NCBI GenBank assembly: GCA_910575165.1
Contig: CAJTDS010000001.1
Coordinates: 186,001 to 250,000, forward strand
Direction of reading: 5' to 3'
DNA: 64,000 nt
Source: Eggerthellaceae bacterium
GTDB taxonomy: Bacteria > Actinomycetota > Coriobacteriia > Coriobacteriales > Eggerthellaceae
Program-made: the position numbers and the translations under genes
Shown: in pieces, positions 5,109 to 61,210 of the stretch
Layout: every line of letters starts with the position of its first letter
How positions within the stretch are numbered: position 1 is the stretch's first letter
Notes under the pieces: model-generated
The model's database searches: none
Told to the model about the DNA's origin: nothing
Seen by the model: the letters and a program-made list of their open reading frames with translations, nothing else

Positions 5109-5294
5109 TGTAACGGAAGACGTTTGTGGCAGCTGAATCCTGCCACAAACGTCTTCCGTTACGCGAAATCGCGCATAAACGTCGTTCGTTACAGCGTTTT
5201 CTGCCATAAACGTCTTTCGTTACATGGGGGTGGGTGAAGCTTGCCACAAACGTCTTTCGGTGCACGAAATCGCGCACAATCGTCGTTCGCTGCA
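5109..5294. repeat. Repeat family A, locus 1 (one inverted plus five direct 20-bp dyad units)
   Basis: Units at 5109-5131 (inverted), 5141-5163, 5174-5193, 5205-5224, 5245-5264 and 5275-5294. The first two form a perfect inverted repeat of about 22 bp. The typical unit is CATAAACGTCTTTCGTTACA, itself a dyad around AACG...CGTT; here several units have CACAA for CATAA. The last two units are decayed. The locus lies between two convergent genes. Confidence 0.85.
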
Positions 5295-16014: not shown

Positions 16015-16210
16015 TGTAACGGAAGACGTTTATGGCAATCGAAACCTGCCATAAACGTCTTCCGTTACAGAAAATCGTACATAACCGTCATCGGTTACAG
16101 TGTTTTCTGCCATAAACGTCGTTCGTTACACGGGCGATAGCTGGAGCGCGCCATAAACGTCTCCCGTTACATCGGAGGCCCGCGAAGCGCCACAACCGTC
16201 ACCGGTTACA
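16015..16210. repeat. Repeat family A, locus 2 (one inverted plus five direct units)
   Basis: Units at 16015-16037 (inverted), 16047-16069, 16080-16099, 16111-16130, 16152-16171 and 16191-16210. Units 1 and 2 form a perfect 23-bp inverted repeat with a 9-base loop. Unit cores alternate between AAACGTCTTCCGTT and AACCGTCATCGGTT types. Spacers of 10-20 bases are partly conserved with the other loci, e.g. TGTTTTCTGC. It lies 245 bases upstream of the adhesin start. Confidence 0.9.
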
Positions 16211-16454
16211 TCGTTTCCCGTCCGAATGCGGGCAACGCCTCGGCGCCGGAACGTGAAGGTGACATGACAGTTTCCTTAAGGTAACGGTTCGGCGAAACGA
16301 AATCGTTGCTGCAAGCCATCCGAATGGCTATTATGAGACTGGGTGAGAAGCGCGCACGATCATGTTCGGAATATATTCTGCCTGGTCATGGTTCTTCTCT
16401 CTTGAGAGGCAAACGCCGGTTTTCGCAAGGGGCCGGTGGGGGATAGGAGTTGCA

Positions 16455-19400
16455 ATGAGGAAGTCTACTGCTCGTATTAAGGTAGTGAACAGCCTGCTGG
16501 CGTGCACGCTGGTACTGGGGCTGATGCCGTCGCTGGGATCGGTTGCCTACGGCGATCCAGCTGAAAATCTCATGGGGGGGGGGTCGCCTGAAAGCGGTTT
16601 GCTAGGGGCGGTTTCTGACCTCATGATACCCGAAGCGCAGGATGAGCCCGTCGGCGACCCTGCGTCGGAGGATGACGCTGCCCCCGATAACGCCGGCAAC
16701 CCCGAAGGCTCCGTTTCGGCCGCCGACCCCAACTCCGAAGGCGCCGAAGCGAACGCTCCCACCCCTGTTTCCGAAGGTGACGATTCCCCCGACGCCGCCT
16801 CCGACCCCAACGCTGACGACGCCGACGACTCGGCGATCGAGCTCAAATCCTTGGCCACCTTCGACGCTGGCGACGGCTTCACCGACTGCGGCGGCCTGTC
16901 CATCAAGAGCGCCGACGGCTCCACGGACGGCTTCGGCTACGAAGAGGTCACTTGGACGCGCATCGGCCGCGGCTACACCGAGAACGGGTATAGCAGCAGC
17001 GGCCGCAATCCCGAAATCCCCCGTACCACTCCGGTTACCGCTACCCTCAACATGCTGGTTATCAAGAAGAGCGGCACGTACACCATCAAGAACACCGCGG
17101 ACGCGGCCACGGGCACCGGCATCCGCGTCATGCCCGGCTTGAACGTGAACCTGGTGTTCGCCGGCGTAAACATCAACGGCGGCTACCCCATGGAAATCGT
17201 CACCAACAGCCACGTGTCCTCTACCTACGACTTCCTGACCGAAGAGATGGAGGGCTCCGACGTGGCGAATCCCACGCGCGTGCACATCACCCTGGCCGAC
17301 GGTACCACGAACAACCTGACCTCGCTCTACAACAGCATCGCTCACAGCTCGGGCAGCAACCAGAACTACAACGAGTACCAGTTCCCCGGCCTGCGCTGCG
17401 GCGAGGGGTCGTACCTGACCATCGACGACGCGGTGCTCAACGTGGACACGGCGGGCAACCACATCACGCCCGTTGACGGCGCCATCCCCGACGGCACCAC
17501 CTACGTGGACCGCACCGGCACCGTGCGCACCGCCGACTCCACCAAGAAGAAGGAAAGCGAGCGCTTCAACAGCCTGTCGAACCTGGAGTCCTCGAACCCC
17601 GGCGTGCTGAACGTGTACGGCGGCGTGCGCTCGGCTGCCATCGGCGGCGGTCCGCTGGAGAATTCCGGCGTCATGACCTTCGACGGCGGCACCATCAACA
17701 CCTATGCCGCGGCCTTCAACGGTAACGGCGCCGGCTGCGGCATCGGCGGCGGCCATGCGGGCGGCAGCACCCAGACCACCATCAACGGCGGCGTCATCTA
17801 CGCACGGTCGTCCTTCCACGGCGCGGCTATCGGCGGCGGATGCACCTACGTCGGCGGCATGTCGTCCTACCTCACCTTCCCCCTGGCCGACGCGCTGCTC
17901 TCCCGCAACGCCAACTCCACCATCGCCGGCGACATCACCATCAACGGCGGCTTCACCACGGCCCAGGGCGACGAGCACTCCAATGCCTTCGGTCAGGGTT
18001 GCGGTGGCTCCAATACCGGCAAGACCATCCTCATCACCGGCGGCACCCTGTATCCTCTTTGGGGTGGTGGCGGCGGCTTTCTGGAAATCGGTGGCGATGG
18101 CGGCAAGGTCATCATCACCGGCGGCTCCATCAACTGCACGCGCTTCCAGGGCAACGACAACGACGGCAAGGCCTACGGCGGCAAGACCGATGAGAACGGC
18201 AACTACCTGTTCGACAGCACCAACAAGGTGGCCATGATCAACGTGAAGGTGGGCCCGAAGATTGAGTCCATGGTCAAGCAGCTCATGCGCGACAAGCTGG
18301 GCGACGCCTACGACGAGAGCACCATTGCCTCCAATCCGGAGTACCAGAAGCTGCTGGCCGAGGGCATGAACGCCAAGATTGAGTCTTGGGAGTTCAAGAT
18401 TAACGACATGCCCATGGAGCCCTACTACGGCGCGCCGGCCCGTCTGCAGAACGGCATTCTGTACCTGTGGCTGCCCGAGGGCACCTACGGCCGCGACAAG
18501 GTGGACGCGAACTTCAGCTACTACGTGGGCGACCAGCTGCTCACCTCTTACACCAACGTGCCGGCGAACCCCGACTCCGCCGACGGTACCATCAAGGAAT
18601 GGGAGGTCTTCGAGCTGGACGAGGCCTTCATCGAGGCCAACTGGTCCAAGTACTACGATGGCGTCTCCCTTGACTCCGCGGGTATCTTAGGCTCGGGCGG
18701 TATCTCGGTGAACAACCCTCCCAGTGGCAAGCTGACCGATGCGAACAAGCTGACCTTCGGCGCCCAGAAAATGGACGAGCTGGGCAACGGCACGGCGGCT
18801 TCCACCAGCTCTTCGAAGATGCCGGCCGATTCGGGCATGTACAACGTAGAGGTCATGTCCTCTCAGTACGCCTCCGATACCAACTTCGCCGTGACCTACT
18901 GGGGGCACCGCGCCTACGGCACCGCCACGGTGTCTCCCATCTCGTCGCGCTCCGTAACCGAGGTTCCCGAAGAGCTGGGTCGCGTGGTGGGCGACGATAC
19001 CTACACCAGCCCCGTGTGGCTGCAGGACGAGGCTCCCGAAGGGACCGACTTCAACACGGCGCTGCAGAACCACATGTTCGTTCCCGTGGACGTGACCAGC
19101 TACAAGGTGCCCTTCGGAGACACCTACAAGGACGGCACCGACACGGCGAAGGCCTCGTGCGTGGTTCCCCAAGGCCGCATCACGCTGTACCTGGACGGCG
19201 TGCAGATTCCCGCGCGCCTGGGCGGCGTGATTGACTATCGCCTGAGCTATGATGACACCGGCAAGCCGGTTATGGGCGATAACGGTTCGCAAGCTACTAC
19301 CAACAGCGACGTGGTCACCTATGTCGACGACGACGGTCGCATGCACGCGGTGGCCTACTTCGACCTGAACGAGAAGAAGATCAACGAGCTGTTCCGCTCG

Positions 19401-22400
19401 GCGGACTACCGTGCGAACAACACCTTCGACAAGAAGGTTGCCGAGGCTGGCCCCGACGACCCCGCGCCGCTGCACGAGGTGCATGCGGTGTACACGTCGG
19501 CCGTGCGCGACAACCTGATCGACCGCGACGATGTCGACCAGGCTGTGGAAGGCTACAGCCTGGAAGCGCCGCAGGATGAGGAGCCGGCGGCGGAGGAGCA
19601 GGCCGCAGACGACGCGGCCGATGCGACGGTGGGCGCCCTGGCGGCAGGCGGCGAGCTTGATCCGGCGGCCTTCGGAGCCCTGGTGGCGCAGAAGGTGTTG
19701 CTGTTCGCCGAGGGCGCCGACGACGACGCCGGCAGCTTGATCGCGAAGGAGGCCACCTCGGCCGGCATCGACGGCGTGGCGCCCCGGTGGTCCGACTCCG
19801 GCTACGAGAACTACTACGAGTCCACCACGCCTGTGACCTTCGTGGACATCGCCATGGTGGACCCCACGGGCACCCTGTACAACGAGATGGGCCAGCCCCA
19901 GGAGAACCCCGATGGCACCAATTCCTACGACCGCGTGTCCTACGACCCGGCGCTGCCGGTGGATGCGTCCAACATGCCCTCCACCGACGACAAGTACAAG
20001 GCCAGCTACGTGGTGGAAAAGCCCGTCGAGGGCGGCACGGAGAAGGAAGTGGTCTGTGAGGAGTACAAGTTCTACCACGTGACTGACTTCCGCGATTCGG
20101 AGACCTCTCGGGCGTCTACTCCTGACTGGTTCCCCGTTTACCTGACTACGAACTCCCTGGGCGACGTGACCTTCACAAGCTCCGACCCTGCTGCCGTCAC
20201 CTTCGACCCCGCCACGGTGACCAACCGCGAGTACGAGGACGGCACGGTGGAGTACGGCATTGGCGCGCGGGCTCATGTGAACTCGGCAGGTAAGGTGACG
20301 CTCAAGGCTCGGGTGGCTCCCAACGGTGCCTACAACGGGCTGGAGCGCAGCTTCACGCTGTACATCTACCCCGACCTGTCGAAGAAGCCGGTGCTGGACA
20401 TGAAGGAGACGGCTTACGACACCAGCCGCTCCGACGGCACCATCCGCCCCGGCGACGTGCTGGCCTACACTGCCACGCTCACGAACACCACGCCTGACTC
20501 GGCGCTGTTCCGCGGCAAGATGCAGATGCAACTGCCCGACACCCTGGAAGTGGGCCGCGTATTCTATACCGATCCCAACGGAGCGGAGCGCGAGCTTGAC
20601 CCCAGCGAGTACACGGTGACCACCGATCCCGCCACCGGTGTGTCCACCATCGAGTTCACGTCCACCGAGGTGCTCTACGGCTTGGGCCAGATGAGCCTGA
20701 CGGTGGAGGCTGCGGTGAAGGCCGATGTTGCCTGGCGCGCCCTGACCGACCCTGATTCGGTGAGCTTCCATTCCACCACCACGGGCAGCGGCGTGTACGG
20801 TATCGGCGACAGCGACTTCGACTGGGATACCCGTTACGACTACGTGGACGGCACGCCCACCGACGAGGCCAGCGCCGAATGCGACCCCACGCTTCCACCC
20901 GAGCGTGAGCCCGAACAGCCCAAGCCGCCCTATACTCCCGACGAGCTTGAGGAGATTCTCGGCGGTGGCCTGGTGGACCCCGAGCCCGGCACGCCCGACG
21001 ACCCGGAGCCCGGCCCCGGCGTACTGGTGGGCGGCACTGACCCGGTGCCCGGTTCGCCCTTCGACCAGGCGGTGGAGGACAGCGACTATACCGACGACCC
21101 CAAGCCGAACCCCATTGTGCCGGGCGACCGTATCATCAAGTTCGGCGAGAAGGACGATCCCGAGACCCCCGATGACATCGCCGAGGAGCTGAAGCGCATC
21201 ATCGACAAGGTGGTGGAGGAGAACAAGGGCAAGCCCGAGGACGAGCGCCAGACCACGGTTGACATCCCGGTGACTATCCTGACGCCCAACCCCGACGACC
21301 CGGACGGCGAGCCGGTGGAGAAGCACGTGATCATCACGGTGCCCGTGCCCGATACCCCCGATACGCCCGACGTCCCCAGCAACCCCGACGACCCCGACAA
21401 CCCGGACGACCCCGACAATCCGGACGATCCGAGCAACCCGGACGACCCGAAGAACCCCCACGATCCCGATCGCGACGACCACGGTTTGACGGTGCTGCCG
21501 AACGACCCGGTGGTTCCCGACCCCGGCAACCCGGACGACCCCGACGACCCGGACGACCCCGACGACCCGGACACCCCGGCGAAAAGCGACATCGTGGTGA
21601 CCAAGGAGCTTCGCAACGTTACGCCCGGGTTCGCTGACCGCGGCAACACCTACGCGCTGGTGGGCGATACGCTGGAGTACACCATCGTGGCCAAGAACCT
21701 GAAGGAGGGCACGGCGTGGCTTGCGGCCCAGGTGTACGATCCGCTGCCCCAGGGCGTGGCCTACGTGTCCGGTTCGGCGGTCATCACCGATCAGTTCGGC
21801 AAGCAGCATGCGGTGAAGGCCGAAGACGAGCTTCACGGCGAAGGCGGCAAGCTGGGCTTCAACCTGGGCGACATCTACGGCGGCAAGCAGGCTAGCGTCA
21901 CGTTCAAGGTGACGGTCACGGCCGACGCGGTGGCCGACGGCGCCCCGGTGCCGTCCAACGTGGCCTACGGCCAGGGCACGAAGCCTTCCGGCACCGTCGT
22001 GTACCCGGAGGGAACCGACCCCGACACCTTCGATCCCACCACCGACCTGCCTATCGAGATTCAGCTTCCCGACCCCACGCCGGGCACGTTCGACCCGGGC
22101 AGCGAGGATGAGAAGGACAAGTGGGAGGAAGAGGATCCGGACAACCCCGGTACCACCAAGCCCAAGGACCTGCTGCCCACCGACCCGGCCAAGCCTGACG
22201 GCACGAGCCACACCGACCCCGACCATGGGAAGTTCTCCACGGTCAAGGACGCCACGGTGGTGACCGAGCACGAGGGTGCGCCCGAGGGCACTGTGTACGT
22301 GGGCGACGTGGTGGCCTATACCATCACGTTCGCGAATCACGACGAGCCGTGGACTGCGTGGTACAACGTGACCCTGTACGACAAGCTGCCCAAGGGCCTG

Positions 22401-23027
22401 GCGCCGGTGGCGGGCTCCTTCGCGCTGAAGGCCCCTGGCGCCGATGAGGCCCAGCCGCTTGACGACTCGGTCTACAACGCGCAAAGCGGGGACATCTCGG
22501 TGTATGTGGGGCGCGTGTTGGGCGGTCAGGAAGCGGTGCTCACGTTCCAGTGCACCGTCACTGACGAGGCTGTGGGCTCCGACATCGGCAACACAGCGGC
22601 TGTGTACGGCACCGACCCGTCGAAGACCGAGCCCTCAGTGCTGGATGGTACGCCGGGTGCCACTCCCGGGGTGGGTGACCGCTACGCCCCCGAAGAGGGC
22701 TGGGACGGATTCGTGGAGGATAACGGCTCTGATTCGGCGAACTTCTCGTCGGTGAGCTATCCCGACAGCGAAGGCCCTGTGGACGTGGTCGACCCGAATG
22801 GCGACCCGAACCGCAAGCCCACGCCGCTGCCTTCCGGCGACGGCAACGGTAACGGCGACGGTAACGGCGGCCCGGGCGGCTCGTCGGCGGCCACGGGTGA
22901 CAGCCTGCCCGTGACGGCGCTTGCGGGCCTGGCGTTCGCGGCCTTCGTGGTGCTGGCGACCGCCCTGTGGCGCCGCCGGGTAGACGCCCTCAGGGAGCAG
23001 GCGCCGCACGGCAAGCACGTGCGGTAA
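16455..23027 (+). CDS. Giant cell-surface adhesin-like protein with a phase-variable G10 tract
   Basis: 2190 residues from ATG 16455 (ATAGGAG upstream; an upstream in-frame ATG at 16362 lacks a ribosome site). Residues 1-32 are a signal peptide ending SVAYG-D. An acidic Pro/Ala-rich region (33-135) follows and holds three Gly encoded by the G10 tract. Residues about 135-650 are Gly/Asn-rich with GGG(x) turns (AAIGGGPLENSG, CGIGGGHAGG), as in beta-helix surface proteins. DUF11-like repeats start near 1312, 1712 and 1927 (e.g. VLAYTATLTNTT, LEYTIVAKNL, VAYTITFANHD). Asp-Pro-rich linkers (DNPDDPDNPDD type) lie at about 1635-1675 and 1689-1709. The C-terminus is AATGDSLPVT, a 20-residue membrane segment and RRR, like a sortase signal but without LPxTG. 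Role in adhesion is inferred. Confidence 0.9.
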   Translation: MRKSTARIKVVNSLLACTLVLGLMPSLGSVAYGDPAENLMGGGSPESGLLGAVSDLMIPEAQDEPVGDPASEDDAAPDNAGNPEGSVSAADPNSEGAEANAPTPVSEGDDSPDAASDPNADDADDSAIELKSLATFDAGDGFTDCGGLSIKSADGSTDGFGYEEVTWTRIGRGYTENGYSSSGRNPEIPRTTPVTATLNMLVIKKSGTYTIKNTADAATGTGIRVMPGLNVNLVFAGVNINGGYPMEIVTNSHVSSTYDFLTEEMEGSDVANPTRVHITLADGTTNNLTSLYNSIAHSSGSNQNYNEYQFPGLRCGEGSYLTIDDAVLNVDTAGNHITPVDGAIPDGTTYVDRTGTVRTADSTKKKESERFNSLSNLESSNPGVLNVYGGVRSAAIGGGPLENSGVMTFDGGTINTYAAAFNGNGAGCGIGGGHAGGSTQTTINGGVIYARSSFHGAAIGGGCTYVGGMSSYLTFPLADALLSRNANSTIAGDITINGGFTTAQGDEHSNAFGQGCGGSNTGKTILITGGTLYPLWGGGGGFLEIGGDGGKVIITGGSINCTRFQGNDNDGKAYGGKTDENGNYLFDSTNKVAMINVKVGPKIESMVKQLMRDKLGDAYDESTIASNPEYQKLLAEGMNAKIESWEFKINDMPMEPYYGAPARLQNGILYLWLPEGTYGRDKVDANFSYYVGDQLLTSYTNVPANPDSADGTIKEWEVFELDEAFIEANWSKYYDGVSLDSAGILGSGGISVNNPPSGKLTDANKLTFGAQKMDELGNGTAASTSSSKMPADSGMYNVEVMSSQYASDTNFAVTYWGHRAYGTATVSPISSRSVTEVPEELGRVVGDDTYTSPVWLQDEAPEGTDFNTALQNHMFVPVDVTSYKVPFGDTYKDGTDTAKASCVVPQGRITLYLDGVQIPARLGGVIDYRLSYDDTGKPVMGDNGSQATTNSDVVTYVDDDGRMHAVAYFDLNEKKINELFRSADYRANNTFDKKVAEAGPDDPAPLHEVHAVYTSAVRDNLIDRDDVDQAVEGYSLEAPQDEEPAAEEQAADDAADATVGALAAGGELDPAAFGALVAQKVLLFAEGADDDAGSLIAKEATSAGIDGVAPRWSDSGYENYYESTTPVTFVDIAMVDPTGTLYNEMGQPQENPDGTNSYDRVSYDPALPVDASNMPSTDDKYKASYVVEKPVEGGTEKEVVCEEYKFYHVTDFRDSETSRASTPDWFPVYLTTNSLGDVTFTSSDPAAVTFDPATVTNREYEDGTVEYGIGARAHVNSAGKVTLKARVAPNGAYNGLERSFTLYIYPDLSKKPVLDMKETAYDTSRSDGTIRPGDVLAYTATLTNTTPDSALFRGKMQMQLPDTLEVGRVFYTDPNGAERELDPSEYTVTTDPATGVSTIEFTSTEVLYGLGQMSLTVEAAVKADVAWRALTDPDSVSFHSTTTGSGVYGIGDSDFDWDTRYDYVDGTPTDEASAECDPTLPPEREPEQPKPPYTPDELEEILGGGLVDPEPGTPDDPEPGPGVLVGGTDPVPGSPFDQAVEDSDYTDDPKPNPIVPGDRIIKFGEKDDPETPDDIAEELKRIIDKVVEENKGKPEDERQTTVDIPVTILTPNPDDPDGEPVEKHVIITVPVPDTPDTPDVPSNPDDPDNPDDPDNPDDPSNPDDPKNPHDPDRDDHGLTVLPNDPVVPDPGNPDDPDDPDDPDDPDTPAKSDIVVTKELRNVTPGFADRGNTYALVGDTLEYTIVAKNLKEGTAWLAAQVYDPLPQGVAYVSGSAVITDQFGKQHAVKAEDELHGEGGKLGFNLGDIYGGKQASVTFKVTVTADAVADGAPVPSNVAYGQGTKPSGTVVYPEGTDPDTFDPTTDLPIEIQLPDPTPGTFDPGSEDEKDKWEEEDPDNPGTTKPKDLLPTDPAKPDGTSHTDPDHGKFSTVKDATVVTEHEGAPEGTVYVGDVVAYTITFANHDEPWTAWYNVTLYDKLPKGLAPVAGSFALKAPGADEAQPLDDSVYNAQSGDISVYVGRVLGGQEAVLTFQCTVTDEAVGSDIGNTAAVYGTDPSKTEPSVLDGTPGATPGVGDRYAPEEGWDGFVEDNGSDSANFSSVSYPDSEGPVDVVDPNGDPNRKPTPLPSGDGNGNGDGNGGPGGSSAATGDSLPVTALAGLAFAAFVVLATALWRRRVDALREQAPHGKHVR
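16574..16583 (+). repeat. G10 homopolymer inside the adhesin reading frame
   Basis: Ten consecutive G follow CAT at codons 40-43, just after the signal peptide. With ten G the frame is open; gain or loss of one base would shift it and stop the protein early. Confidence 0.85.
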
Positions 23028-23318: not shown

Positions 23319-23434
23319 TGTAACGGATGACGTTTATGGCAATGGAAACCTGCCATAAACGTCTTTCGTTACAGGAAATCGCACATAACCGTCATCGGTT
23401 ACAGTGTTTTCTGCCATAAACGTCATCCATTACA
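23319..23434. repeat. Repeat family A, locus 3 (one inverted plus three direct units)
   Basis: Units at 23319-23341 (inverted), 23351-23373, 23384-23403 and 23415-23434. Spacers between units match those of loci 1, 2 and 4. It lies between two convergent genes, about 70 bases past the metH stop. Confidence 0.88.
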
Positions 23435-28151: not shown

Positions 28152-28411
28152 AGCTCTCTTTCGGTCGGCTGATGTTCAGCGGAGGCTTATGATAGCCGTT
28201 TGATGCGGCGAGCGGCCTTGCGCTCCCCCAAAACCGCAGGATACCATCGAAAACGACTATGAAGCGCGGCCAGAGCAACACCCGAGCGGCGCTCGGGCGA
28301 CAACAACGACAACGCCAGCAGTCCGCGTGCGACGCGCCCGCCGATCCAGTTGGGAGCAGTGGTGGCGGTGTCGCGGCAACGTTAGCGCCCCGCGTGCGAC
28401 GCGCCCGCCGA

Positions 28412-28567
28412 TGTAACGGAAGACGGTTGTGGCAATCGAAACCTGCCATAAACGTCTTTCGTTACAGAAAATCGTACATAACCGTCATCGGCTACATCGT
28501 TTTCTGCCATAACCGTCATCGGTTACACGGGGATGGCTGGGGCGTGCCATAACCGTCATCGGTTACA
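28412..28567. repeat. Repeat family A, locus 4 (one inverted plus four direct units)
   Basis: Units at 28412-28434 (inverted), 28444-28466, 28477-28496, 28508-28527 and 28548-28567. Three of them have the AACCG...CGG form. Bases 28568-28819 hold several weak look-alikes (e.g. GCGTCTTCCGTTGTATCG near 28740) and no gene, and may be decayed units. Confidence 0.88.
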
Positions 28568-33841: not shown

Positions 33842-33918
33842 GCGCCGTTACCTCAGCTGGATAGAGGGACTGACTACGAATCAGTACGTCGGGGGTTCGA
33901 ATCCCTCACGGCGCACCA
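33842..33918 (+). tRNA. tRNA-Arg(ACG)
   Basis: 77 bases with encoded CCA. Acceptor stem GCGCCGT / ACGGCGC, D-arm with CAGCTGGATAGAG, anticodon stem CTGACTACGAATCAG with anticodon ACG, T-arm GGGGGTTCGAATCCC. It is the left boundary and probable attachment site of the prophage. Confidence 0.95.
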
Positions 33919-51982: not shown

Positions 51983-52052
51983 CGACTTTCGGCCTTGCGA
52001 CTTTCCGACTTTCGGGCGTTCCGACTTTCGCCCTTGCGACTTTCCGACTTTC
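51983..52052. repeat. CGACTTTC repeats in a 39-bp duplication
   Basis: CGACTTTC at 51983, 51998, 52006, 52022, 52037 and 52045: two blocks of three with identical internal spacing. Starts directly at the terS stop codon. Confidence 0.8.
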
Positions 52053-55995: not shown

Positions 55996-57774
55996 ATGGC
56001 AGAATCCGGCATCGCGCGGGCGCGCAGGGCGCAGCTCGTGCTCGACCAGGTGGCGAGGGACGCGGCGTCATCGTCGTCCGCGGAGCCGTTCCGCGACGCC
56101 CTGGCGATGCTGACCATCATGGCCCGGGAGGAGCCCGTCGTCGAGTCCGCGTACGCGCGGCGCTTCTACGAGCTGGCGTCGGACGCCGTGGTGAGGGCGG
56201 GCGGCGACCTCGCCGAGGCCGAGGAGGTCCTGCGCTGCGTGGAGGGCATCCTGAGGCTCAACGCGCCGTTCGACCTCGACTGCTACATGCTCTTCACCGA
56301 GTGGAACCGCGATCCGTCCAAGCAGTTCTGGCTACCCAGGCGCGACGTGCTGATGCCCGTGTGCGAGGGGTTCCAGGACCTCGCCGACGACCTGCTGGAC
56401 GTGCTCACGGTGTCGCTCCCTCCGCGCGTCGGCAAGTCCACGACGGGCATCTTCGCGGTGACGTGGCAGATGGGGCGCCACCCCCTGGACGCGAACGTCA
56501 TGAGCGGCCATTCGGACAAGCTGACCAAGAACTTCCACATGGAGGCGCTCGGCATAATCTCGGACGCCTACACCTACCGGTTCCGCGAGGTGTTCCCCGA
56601 CGCGCGGATGGTGGGCAGCTCCATGGCGGAGGAGACTGTGAGCCTTGTGCGCGAGGGGCGCTTCCCGACGCTCACGTGCCGCGCCGTCAAGGGTACGCTC
56701 ACGGGCGCCGTGGAGGTGGGCCACAACGGTCTGCTCTACTGCGACGACATGGTGTCGGACCGCGAGGAGGCGCTGTCGGCCGACCGCATGGACAAGCTCT
56801 ACGACGCCTACCTCAGCCAGCTTTTCGACCGAAAGCTGTCCGGCGCCAAGGAGGTGCACGTGGGGACGCGGTGGGTGCCCAACGACGTGATCGGCCGCGT
56901 GGTCGAGTCGAACGCCGGCAGCAGGCGCTGCAGGACCATCGTGATACCGGCCCTCGACGGCGTGCCGTGGAGCGAGGTCATGGGCAGGCGGGAGGCGGAG
57001 GACAGGCACGCGTTCGTGTCGGAGGACCTCGGCGACGGCACGGTGGTGGTCGAGCATCCGTGGGGCAGGTCCAACTTCGAGTACAAGTTCGGCACCGGCT
57101 TCGACACCTTCTACTACGAGAACGTCAGGCGCAAGCTGGAGGAGGCCGGCGCGGCCGACTCGTGGTGGGCGAAGTACATGGGCGCCCCGTACTGGATAGA
57201 CGGCCTCATGTTCCCCGAGTCCGAGCTGAAGTTCTACGACGAGCTGCCCGAGGGGGAGCCGGACGGCGTGATCGCCGTGTGCGACACCAAGGACAGGGGC
57301 GCTGACTACGCCGTGGAGCCGATAGGCTACGTGTACGGCGACCGCCACTACATACACGACGTGGTGTGCGACAACTCGCTGCCCGAGGTGGTCGAGCCAA
57401 AGCTCGCCGCCGCGCTCGTGCGCAACGGCGTCGGCATAGCGCAGTTCGAATCGAACAGCGCGGGAGGCCGCGTCGCAGACTCCGTGGCCCAGCGGTGCCG
57501 CGAGGCCGGGCACAGCGTGGAGATCCGCAAGAAGTTCTCCACCGAGAACAAGGAGACGCGCATCCTCGTCGATTCCGCGTGGGTGAAGGAGCACTGCTAC
57601 TTCCGCTCCGAGCCGCCGAGCGAGGAGTACGCGATGTTCATGGGGATGCTCACGCGGTACACGACGGAGGGGCGGAACAAGCACGACGACGCCCCCGACG
57701 CCATGTCGATGTACAAGCGCTTCGCGTCGGGCATTATCTCCGCCTCGGTCGAGCCGATGGACAGGCCGTTCTAG
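55996..57774 (+). CDS. terL: Terminase large subunit
   Basis: 592 residues, ATG 55996 after GGGAGG. ATPase: LPPRVGKSTTG (Walker A, 141-151), LLYCDDMVSD (Walker B). Nuclease: VCDTKDRGADY, and the C-terminal NKHDDAPDAMSM. It cuts and pumps DNA into the prohead through the portal. An N-terminal extension of about 130 residues precedes the ATPase, longer than in many phage terminases. Confidence 0.93.
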   Translation: MAESGIARARRAQLVLDQVARDAASSSSAEPFRDALAMLTIMAREEPVVESAYARRFYELASDAVVRAGGDLAEAEEVLRCVEGILRLNAPFDLDCYMLFTEWNRDPSKQFWLPRRDVLMPVCEGFQDLADDLLDVLTVSLPPRVGKSTTGIFAVTWQMGRHPLDANVMSGHSDKLTKNFHMEALGIISDAYTYRFREVFPDARMVGSSMAEETVSLVREGRFPTLTCRAVKGTLTGAVEVGHNGLLYCDDMVSDREEALSADRMDKLYDAYLSQLFDRKLSGAKEVHVGTRWVPNDVIGRVVESNAGSRRCRTIVIPALDGVPWSEVMGRREAEDRHAFVSEDLGDGTVVVEHPWGRSNFEYKFGTGFDTFYYENVRRKLEEAGAADSWWAKYMGAPYWIDGLMFPESELKFYDELPEGEPDGVIAVCDTKDRGADYAVEPIGYVYGDRHYIHDVVCDNSLPEVVEPKLAAALVRNGVGIAQFESNSAGGRVADSVAQRCREAGHSVEIRKKFSTENKETRILVDSAWVKEHCYFRSEPPSEEYAMFMGMLTRYTTEGRNKHDDAPDAMSMYKRFASGIISASVEPMDRPF

Positions 57775-57966
57775 CCGCATCACAGCGCCCCGAAGCGCAT
57801 CTATGCGCCCCACTTCGCCGAGCCGTTTACACGGACGGCGCCCGCCGTCAGGATACGCCGAGGCGGACCCTCTCCGCCGCGACGGCCCGTGCCGCAAGAC
57901 CCCGGCGGGCTCAACCTCGGGCCGTCGCGTCCCCTCATGCGCCCGCAGGGCGAGGAAGGCTGCACG

Positions 57967-59478
57967 GTGGAAGAAGCTGCGAGCATGGAAGGCAACGTCG
58001 AGGGCGCGCCCCTCTTCCTCGGCCGCGCCCGCGTCATGACGCGCTTCGGCCGCATCGACGAGTCGAACGTCGTCGAGGCGCTCGAAGAGGCGCTTCCCGC
58101 GTTCGGCCTCAACTCGGCGCAGATAAGCGCACTGTGGCGGTACTACAAGGGCGACCAGCGCATCCTCCGCCGCAAGAAGGAGGTCCGCCCCGAGATCGAC
58201 AACCGGATCGTGGAGAACCACGCCCAGGAGATCGTAGCCTTCAAGATCGGCTACCAGCTCTCCGAGCCGATGCAGTACACGTGCCGCATGCAGAGCGACG
58301 GGGACGAGAAGGCGTACGACGAGCGGCTGGGCTCCGTGAACGAGCTGAACACGATGATGTTCGCAGAGGACAAGGCGTCCTGCGACCGCGACCTGTTCGA
58401 GTGGATGTGCGTGGGCGGGATCGGCTACCGCATGGCCGAGGCCGACACGGCGCACGACGTCGAGGACGGCGGTGCCCCCTTCGAGGTGTACACGCTCGAC
58501 CCGCGCGTCACCTGCGTCGTGTGCTCCGCGCAGTACCACCACCGCCCGCTCATGGCGTTCTGGCTCGGGTACGACTCGGCGTCGGAGAAGCCCGTCTACA
58601 ACGTCTACACCGACAAGATGTGGTTCAAGGTCTGCGGCAGCGAGGTCGTCGATAAGAAGGGGCACACCTACGGGAGCGTCCCCATCGTCGAGTACCGCCT
58701 CAACAACGCGCGCATGGGCGTGTTCGAGCCGGTGATCCCCCTCCTGGACGCCATCAACACCATAGAGTCGGACCGGGTGGACGACATCGAGCAGGTCGTC
58801 CAGTCCCTCATGGTCTTCAAGGACTGCGGCATCGACGCCGAGTCGTACGACGCGATGCGCGAGAAGGGCGCCGTGAAGATAAGGAGCCTGGACCCGAACG
58901 TCAAGGCGTCCATCGAGATGCTCAACAGCCCGCTCGACCAGACGGGCACGCAGACCGTCAAGGAGGACCTCTACCAGAGCGTCGTGAACATCTGCGGCAT
59001 GCCCAACAGGAACGGCGTGTCCGGCTCGTCCTCCGACACCGGGGCGGCAGTGCTGCTGCGGGACGGCTGGACGCTCGCCGAGAGCCACGCGAAGAGCTAC
59101 GAGCTGCAGTTCAAGCGCTCCGAGCGCCAGTTCCTGCGGGTGGTCCTGTCGATATGCCGGCAGAGCTCCGCTACTGACCTCGACCTGCGCATACGCGACA
59201 TCGAGCTGGCCTTCAACAGGCGCAACTACGAGAACATCCTGGTCAAGTCCCAGGTGCTGACCACGATGCTGCAGACGGGGAAGATCCATCCGCAGCTCGC
59301 GTTCCAATCGTGCGGCCTCTTCACGGACCCGGATGCCGCGTACAAGCAGTCGGCGGAGTGGGCCGAGGACAACGCGCCCGTCGTGCCCCCGGCGCCCGGT
59401 CGCGACGATGCCGAGCCCGTCGGGTCGGCCGAGGGGCCGCAGGCGGGCGTGCCCCAGGAAGGCGACACCGCGGCGTAG
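57967..59478 (+). CDS. Portal protein, SPP1 gp6 family
   Basis: 503 residues from GTG 57967, the best ribosome site (GAGGAAGG); ATG 57889 would add 26 residues. WRYYKGDQRILRR, VENHAQEIVAFKIGYQLSEP, VPIVEYRLNNARMGVFEPV and SDRVDDIEQVVQSLMVF are typical. The acidic Pro-rich C-terminus is disordered. Twelve copies form the DNA channel. No Mu gpF-like head morphogenesis gene follows. Confidence 0.9.
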   Translation: MEEAASMEGNVEGAPLFLGRARVMTRFGRIDESNVVEALEEALPAFGLNSAQISALWRYYKGDQRILRRKKEVRPEIDNRIVENHAQEIVAFKIGYQLSEPMQYTCRMQSDGDEKAYDERLGSVNELNTMMFAEDKASCDRDLFEWMCVGGIGYRMAEADTAHDVEDGGAPFEVYTLDPRVTCVVCSAQYHHRPLMAFWLGYDSASEKPVYNVYTDKMWFKVCGSEVVDKKGHTYGSVPIVEYRLNNARMGVFEPVIPLLDAINTIESDRVDDIEQVVQSLMVFKDCGIDAESYDAMREKGAVKIRSLDPNVKASIEMLNSPLDQTGTQTVKEDLYQSVVNICGMPNRNGVSGSSSDTGAAVLLRDGWTLAESHAKSYELQFKRSERQFLRVVLSICRQSSATDLDLRIRDIELAFNRRNYENILVKSQVLTTMLQTGKIHPQLAFQSCGLFTDPDAAYKQSAEWAEDNAPVVPPAPGRDDAEPVGSAEGPQAGVPQEGDTAA

Positions 59479-60208: not shown

Positions 60209-61210
60209 ATGCCCGGAACGCTTACCATCGGAAACACCCAGTACCCCTTCGACGAGGAGATCTTCGCGCTCGAATGGGGACAGGTGCCTGACCTGTACCG
60301 CAACGCGATGGTGTCTAGCGGCGCCATGGTCGAGGACGCCTACATCGCATCCCTCATCGCGAACGGGTCCAACCTGTTCACCATCCCGTTCTTCAACGAC
60401 CTCGCGGACGAGGAAGAGGACAACTACGACGGCAAGACCGACATGACCGCCAGCGAGAGCAGCGGCGCGTCCCAGACCGGCGTTGTGTTCGGACGCATGA
60501 AGGCGTGGAAGGCGCCGCAGTTCGTGTCCGACTTCACCACCGCGAAGCCCATGGCCCACATTGCGAGCCGCATCTCCCCGTTCTACCAGCGCCGGACCCA
60601 GAAGAACATTCTCGGCATCAGCAACGGCGTTCTCGGCGTGGCCGACATGGCGGCAAACGCGGTCGCCAAGGCCAAGCTCGACGAGAACACCCTGTCCGAC
60701 GTGTGCCAGGAGATCTGGGGCGACCGCAAGGGCCTCATCGTCATGGCTATCATGCACTCGGCGGTAGCCCAGGAGTTCGAGGACCTCAACCGGTCGAACT
60801 TCCTCCGCTACACCGACGCCAACGGCATGACGACCGAGGTGCGCACCATCAACGTCAACGGCATCACCTGCCTCATCGACGACACGATGCCGGCCACGGT
60901 CGCCGAGGGCGGGGCGAAGACCTACGACACCTACCTGTACGGCGTCGGAGCGCTGCGCCATGCGTCCGCCCCGGTGGAGCACCCCGTCGAGTTCTGGCGC
61001 GACCCGGTGGCGAACGGCGGCATGGATTTCATCGGGACCCGCCGCCGCGAGACCATCCACCCCAACGGGATGAGCTTCAAGGCTCCTACCAAGATGGGCG
61101 AGTCTCCCACGAACGACCAGCTGTTCGCGAAGGCGAACTGGCAGATGGCCTACCCGGACGCCCGCGGCATCCTCATCGGCAAGATGACGACCCCCGGTCA
61201 CGAGGCCTAG
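60209..61210 (+). CDS. Major capsid protein
   Basis: 333 residues, ATG 60209 after TTAGGAGG. WGQVPDLYRNAMVSSGAMVE, FFNDLADEEEDNYDG, DAMA-like segments and a conserved end (KANWQMAYPDARGILIGKM). HK97-fold capsid proteins of this type have no long delta domain because scaffold is separate. The next gene starts 10 bases later. Confidence 0.88.
   Translation: MPGTLTIGNTQYPFDEEIFALEWGQVPDLYRNAMVSSGAMVEDAYIASLIANGSNLFTIPFFNDLADEEEDNYDGKTDMTASESSGASQTGVVFGRMKAWKAPQFVSDFTTAKPMAHIASRISPFYQRRTQKNILGISNGVLGVADMAANAVAKAKLDENTLSDVCQEIWGDRKGLIVMAIMHSAVAQEFEDLNRSNFLRYTDANGMTTEVRTINVNGITCLIDDTMPATVAEGGAKTYDTYLYGVGALRHASAPVEHPVEFWRDPVANGGMDFIGTRRRETIHPNGMSFKAPTKMGESPTNDQLFAKANWQMAYPDARGILIGKMTTPGHEA

Follow-up and report, generated by a model that had tools for sequence, protein, structure and literature searches.

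The window analysed here is a stretch of 64,000 nucleotides (C1:186001-250000) from the 2.72-Mb draft assembly, in 41 contigs, of an Eggerthellaceae bacterium. Its gene content includes LuxR regulators and many oxidoreductases. A prophage seems to begin at a tRNA-Arg gene (33842-33918) and would take up positions 33842-64000, with genes for ERF and YqaJ recombination, a D5-type primase, a large terminase (56038-57774), a portal protein (57937-59478) and a major head protein (60209-61210), as well as tandem CGACTTTC-type repeats at 51983-52052. Four intergenic loci, none of them inside this prophage-like region, carry copies of a repeat element built from a 22-bp unit, GCCAYAAMCGTCNTYSGTTACA. 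Each copy consists of one inverted unit (R) and three direct units (F1, F2 and F3), in some cases followed by extra units. The features of the four loci are as follows:

16015..16036, minus strand: unit R of the element at 16015-16130, 0 mismatches; the element scores 145.1 bits with the covariance model
16037..16047, plus strand: 11-bp loop (AATCGAAACCT) from R to F1, conserved in most of the 26 copies
16048..16069, plus strand: unit F1, pairing with R as a 22-23 bp hairpin (R-F1 pairing in 96.5% of cells against 92.5% in shuffles)
16070..16077, plus strand: spacer 1, containing the conserved AAATCG box; near-invariant columns, box kept in the old C24 array
16078..16099, plus strand: unit F2, starting with YRCATAA rather than GCCATAA
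16100..16108, plus strand: spacer 2 (GYGWTTTCT), T-rich
16109..16130, plus strand: unit F3, closing the 116-bp core (145.1 bits)
16150..16171, plus strand: extra unit, 41 bp past F3
16189..16210, plus strand: extra unit, 39 bp beyond the extra unit at 16150..16171
5109..5224, plus strand: core element (R 5109-5130, F1 5142-5163, F2 5172-5193, F3 5203-5224), 134.4 bits
5243..5294, plus strand: decayed extra block (F1' 5243-5264, F2' 5273-5294; 2 and 5 mismatches)
23319..23434, plus strand: core element (R 23319-23340, F1 23352-23373, F2 23382-23403, F3 23413-23434), 136.1 bits
28412..28527, plus strand: core element (R 28412-28433, F1 28445-28466, F2 28475-28496, F3 28506-28527), 134.2 bits
28546..28567, plus strand: extra unit, 40 bp past F3, matching the degenerate unit pattern

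The gene at 16362-23027, between two of the copies, encodes a surface-type protein of 2221 aa that has DUF11/DUF7927 domains; at about 21335-21600 it includes a stretch rich in proline and aspartate, with a 9-nt period. A 39-bp direct repeat (28307-28345 and 28374-28412; 67 bp apart and 85% identical) runs exactly up to the first position of the element, 28412.

Genome-wide family of 116-bp elements

The degenerate unit pattern matched the window 21 times, against 1.4 matches expected in shuffles (0/100 shuffles reached 21), and the covariance model recovered exactly four full-length elements in it, scoring 134-145 bits. A sequence-only reading of the window had described four loci sharing a unit, its order and parts of the spacers; coordinates, unit, order and common spacers proved exact at 4/4 loci. 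Pattern and covariance searches of the whole genome then identified 26 full-length elements of about 116 bp (124-145 bits) and approximately 138 units, so that the family extends well past the four copies first seen. The elements are distributed over contigs C1 (12), C12 (4), C24 (4), C2 (3), C9 (2) and C4 (1). The genome was read as stretches around elements together with samples of other contigs. The sole additional locus is an old decayed array of many diverged units (C24:19790-20150), in which the R-F1-F2-F3 frame and the AAATCG box are still visible, and the same genome-wide searches found no truncated element copies.

Every copy has the same core geometry, with the inverted unit R followed by F1 at +33, F2 at +30 and F3 at +31; the lone exception in spacing is a 1-bp insertion at C1:171599. 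F2 is distinct in beginning with YRCATAA where the other units have GCCATAA, and the boxes flanking it (AAATCG and TTT) are distinct as well. Extra units past the core tend to decay and are mostly spaced 30-32 or 39-41 bp apart. The near-perfect 23-bp hairpin noticed between the first two units is real, R and F1 forming a hairpin of 22-23 bp with a stable predicted fold. Its 11-bp loop is inverted at C2:89294 (2/11 matches forward, 10/11 reversed). The 26 copies share common descent from one ancestral non-coding element of about 116 bp.

Constraint on the four core units

Conservation was analysed in 25 copies, with four core units each. Unit positions 5, 8, 13, 15 and 16 accounted for 154 minor alleles over the four units, and the same five positions were variable in all four; the other 17 positions together had 27 minor alleles, 11 of which fell in the first two bases of F2. 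Expressed per column, this corresponds to 7.7 minor alleles at the five variable positions, 0.40 at the 17 constrained positions and 3.8 in the spacers. Mismatches at constrained positions affected 1.1% of cells in core units, compared with 11.4% in extra units of the same loci (p ~1e-22). Variation at the degenerate positions is free and, from one unit to the next, largely independent, which shows that the copies are not merely recent. Given that, throughout the copies, each of the four sites has five free and 17 near-fixed positions, something recognises these sites, and the pattern suggests that each 22-bp unit is recognised, most simply by a putative DNA-binding protein.

The dyad symmetry inside the unit is a different matter. 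Its arms had been described as changing together, which was taken as selection for a palindrome, either a protein site or an RNA hairpin. Here the arms are independent (position 8 versus 16: 47/20/30/15, Fisher p=0.84), and selection for a palindrome within the unit was rejected on this ground; the pattern of unit conservation does speak for the protein site.

The same data bear on the idea that the family is a neutral repeat, spread via replication slippage and local duplication, with units under no selection. Intergenic DNA in this genome is long and repeat-rich, extra units decay, and flanks are locally duplicated among neighbouring copies on C24 and C12, all of which would suit such an origin. 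Nevertheless, neutral decay could not have fixed an identical set of 17 positions in four units with five positions and the spacers left free to vary, nor could it have held the exact 33/30/31 spacing in 25/26 copies, and we regard a neutral repeat as highly improbable.

Covariation between R and F1

Covariation over all copies is present between the first and second units, and absent inside units. R and F1 correlate (z=5.3), with the pairing excess over shuffles given above, and two-sided changes involve 5 pairs and 21 cells against 9.7 in shuffles. The combinations R-F2, R-F3, F1-F2 and F1-F3 gave no correlation signal, and F2-F3 identity was slightly raised (z=2.3). Several copies have 2-3 mismatches in the centre of the R-F1 stem. 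On the element strand, G-T pairs (16) exceed A-C pairs (7), so that a degree of RNA pairing is conceivable.

REP sequences have been proposed as stability, processing or termination signals at transcript ends. A transcribed RNA element of this kind, with the R/F1 hairpin and an F2 hairpin closed by AAATCG/YGWTTT, would account for the two-sided changes, the G-T excess and the stable predicted fold. It fits less well with the central mismatches, with the lack of a U-tract following the hairpin and with the fact that F2 and F3, although they do not pair with R, are equally constrained. Further, element direction is independent of the genes and six copies lie between divergent genes, and Rfam returned no element match for the window and 16 other element regions, only tRNAs and one yjdF riboswitch. 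We consider an RNA role quite unlikely.

Template switching between inverted repeats is known to yield arm homogenisation and spacer inversion (PMC8604942), and it can imitate compensatory change (PMC8794818). Because the loop at C2:89294 is inverted and covariation is confined to the adjacent inverted pair, the R-F1 signal looks like template switching. The covariation of the R/F1 hairpin is real but no proof of RNA function, being limited to one adjacent inverted pair with 2-3 central mismatches in several copies and one inverted loop.

Genomic context and clustering

None of the 26 copies overlaps a predicted gene (0/26), which bears out the intergenic placement seen in the window. Flanking genes are codirectional at 12 copies (10 ++ and 2 --), convergent at 7 copies and divergent at 6, with 1 copy at a contig edge. 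Element direction had no consistent relation to that of neighbouring genes (26 copies) and no bias with local GC skew (~14/25), and a replication-polarity role of the KOPS or Chi type was rejected according to the latter figure. The absence of direction bias relative to genes or GC skew fits double-stranded DNA sites. The neighbours scanned share no theme (POR, HK/RR, MerR, GcpE, CdsA/Dxr, LuxR and PH-domain proteins); they are ordinary genes and none is a transposase, so a linked gene or transposase was rejected. One copy lies in a cdsA-dxr gap of about 526 bp, compared with approximately 40-200 bp in congeners. This copy breaks up an operon that is more compact in relatives, and looks like an insertion rather than design.

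The copies are strongly clustered. They are absent from contigs totalling 59% of the genome (P ~8e-11), and C1, C12 and C24, with 16.6% of the genome, carry 20/26 copies (P ~2e-11), although both P values assume independent copies and are overstated given local duplication. With contig order here only inferred from a closed congener (2.26 Mb, dnaA at 0.5 kb) and C2 and C24 outside the placement, pieces of C1 and C12 mapped mostly to 1.97-2.25 Mb (one C1 piece to 1.67 Mb), C4, with one copy, to about 1.06-1.10 Mb near mid-chromosome, and eight sampled element-free contigs to 0.45-0.93 and 1.67-1.79 Mb. Going by congener order, most C1 and C12 pieces would thus lie towards the origin side. Free intergenic space alone does not explain the clustering: predicted coding density is low on C8, C10, C15 and C16 as well, in stretches where no element occurs.

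Neighbouring copies on C24 and C12 have up to 159 bp of flank in common, and therefore arose by local duplication. A perfect 52-bp tandem repeat of 2.2 copies (C24:19389-19503) adjoins an element. The flanks of distant elements on C1, C2, C9, C12 and C24 have other dispersed sequences in common (41-95 bp, 74-82% alike), and from these flank sequences further intergenic repeat families probably exist in the genome.

Comparison with known repeats and other genomes

The family belongs among bacterial intergenic dispersed repeats and is distinct from REP/BIME, CGTC-REP and canonical MITE families. With REP/BIME/REPIN sequences it has in common short units, many intergenic copies, head-to-head pairs, mosaic blocks and conserved linkers. 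Those sequences are GTAG-tagged and RAYT-associated, whereas the unit GCCAYAAMCGTCNTYSGTTACA is no GTAG-tagged 20-40 bp stem-loop, the R-F1-F2-F3 order is fixed with further units direct rather than alternating, and unit constraint is not hairpin-like, within-unit arms being without covariation. A linked RayT-like gene or transposase had been proposed as something to look for; no RAYT gene (Y1_Tnp, PF01797) matched anywhere in the genome, with positive controls, and no transposase lies beside the copies scanned. Mobilisation by RAYT was accordingly rejected.

CGTC-tagged REPs (PMC3733652) likewise have no known dedicated transposase, many are species-limited, and the unit here includes CGTC. 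They are defined by an unpaired CGTC at one end and, after it, a stem of 8-9 bp with a loop of 4-5 bases and a CCA tail (PMC3733652), whereas CGTC here is internal (unit positions 9-12) and no such stem follows. The survey of Di Nocera et al. (2013, PMC3733652) does not mention Actinobacteria in its main text. The BrickBuilt MITE of Porphyromonas gingivalis (PMC4596501) resembles the family in its ~20 intergenic copies per genome and its internal 23-nt direct repeats of variable number. It differs in having IS5-like terminal repeats and some target duplications, of which this family showed neither, and no inverted unit with phased direct units is described among its repeats (PMC4596501). CRISPR arrays have identical direct repeats and unique spacers of equal length beside cas genes; here the loci have conserved spacers in common, one of the units is inverted, and no cas genes were found among the immediate neighbours scanned. 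The unit does not appear to resemble the parS or matS consensus. Ori- or ter-specific chromosome-organising sites of the parS or matS type are concentrated in one chromosomal domain; here 20/26 copies fall in 16.6% of the genome, on three contigs whose order may or may not bring them into a single domain.

The element was absent from 137 other genomes of the family (three congeners and 134 others), and an earlier pattern search of relatives gave scattered chance matches only. Collections of plasmids, phages and viral contigs contained no element, and a species-level genome collection, from which own-species records were possibly left out, returned unrelated hairpins only. Matches in Timonella senegalensis and elsewhere were rejected as relatives, being single terminator-like hairpins lacking F2 and F3. 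Timonella senegalensis, an unrelated actinobacterium, has a separate dispersed hairpin family (GACGATTNTGGCTGG...CCAGCCANAATCGTC) that matches the R/F1 pattern by chance. Literature on REPs in Coriobacteria and on MITEs in Eggerthella, covered mostly outside subscription journals, yielded no such family, and the impression that no named family resembles this dispersed intergenic one is supported.

The closest competitor to a host-used array is a non-autonomous, MITE-like mobile element whose units would bind a transposase or recombinase supplied in trans, R forming one end (TGTAAC...) and F1-F3 the other (...GTTACA), in the manner of a Tn7/Mu-type element that lost its cargo. Copies are dispersed and species-limited, their spacers are conserved, the outermost units are inverted with TGT...ACA ends, and one element interrupts cdsA-dxr, which is compact in congeners. 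Ends of the TnsB/MuA type similarly have several asymmetric 22-bp sites inverted between sides with TGT/ACA outer ends, and multiple 22-bp sites at each end are typical of TnsB (PMC9371665). Unlike such ends, the sides here are only 11 bp apart, with no transposase beside copies, no 5-bp duplication and no cargo. The terminal inverted repeats of a MITE could be represented by R and the last F unit, which lie in inverted orientation with a common CGATGTAAC/GTTACATCG edge, but these are the internal repeat units themselves. Among 891 length/offset combinations no consistent target-site duplication emerged (best z 3.2), none exceeding chance. As for a MITE parent, neither a transposase beside any copy scanned nor unit clusters elsewhere in the draft assembly were found. 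Truncated copies are absent, extra units sit outside the presumed ends, plasmids, phages and viral contigs are without a match, and regional clustering is strong. We therefore hold a mobile origin of this kind to be plausible but doubtful.

Discussion

We favour a protein-bound array over the MITE-like element, the RNA element and the neutral repeat, in that order, and do so tentatively, at somewhat short of even confidence. According to this explanation, each locus is a copy of an ancestral element carrying four sites for a putative DNA-binding protein, with the core kept. Of the four 22-bp sites, R and F1 would stand head to head with a step of 33 bp, and F2 and F3 would come next after steps of 30 and 31 bp, with about three turns of the helix between sites; the putative protein may bind cooperatively along this array. 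Use of the bound array, for instance to organise or insulate the chromosome locally, would be the reason why the core is kept. Extra units would arise by local duplication and then decay, and copies would have spread inside the species' lineage, partly through local duplication. R-F1 complementarity would be kept mainly by template-switching homogenisation of adjacent inverted repeats, not by a need for an RNA hairpin. We favour the array because 17 positions are near-fixed and core units are less mismatched than extra units, because 26/26 copies are full-length and the old C24 array retains frame and box, and because most extra units follow at a distance of 30-32 or 39-41 bp.

Several observations count against the array. 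Identical conservation could also result if the sites served mobility only and copies were often re-made. The family is missing from three congeners, and any host role is thus recent and dispensable in the genus. The cdsA-dxr copy, in an operon more compact in relatives, looks inserted rather than designed. Spacings of 31 and 40 bp are only a rough fit to three and four helical turns, and the best period of extra units is about 9 bp, not 10.5.

A bolder version, which we think unlikely as a whole, is a species-specific system in which a dedicated putative protein would act on at least 26 four-site arrays in one domain, organising or insulating it, a class undescribed for Coriobacteria. To our knowledge, most dispersed bacterial repeats have been read as hairpins or transposon relics. 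The identity of the putative protein would distinguish a regulatory or chromosome-organising system from an unusual mobile element built of multiple sites. Furthermore, covariation between inverted repeats is often read as proof of RNA structure, and this family is a natural case where it looks mutational.
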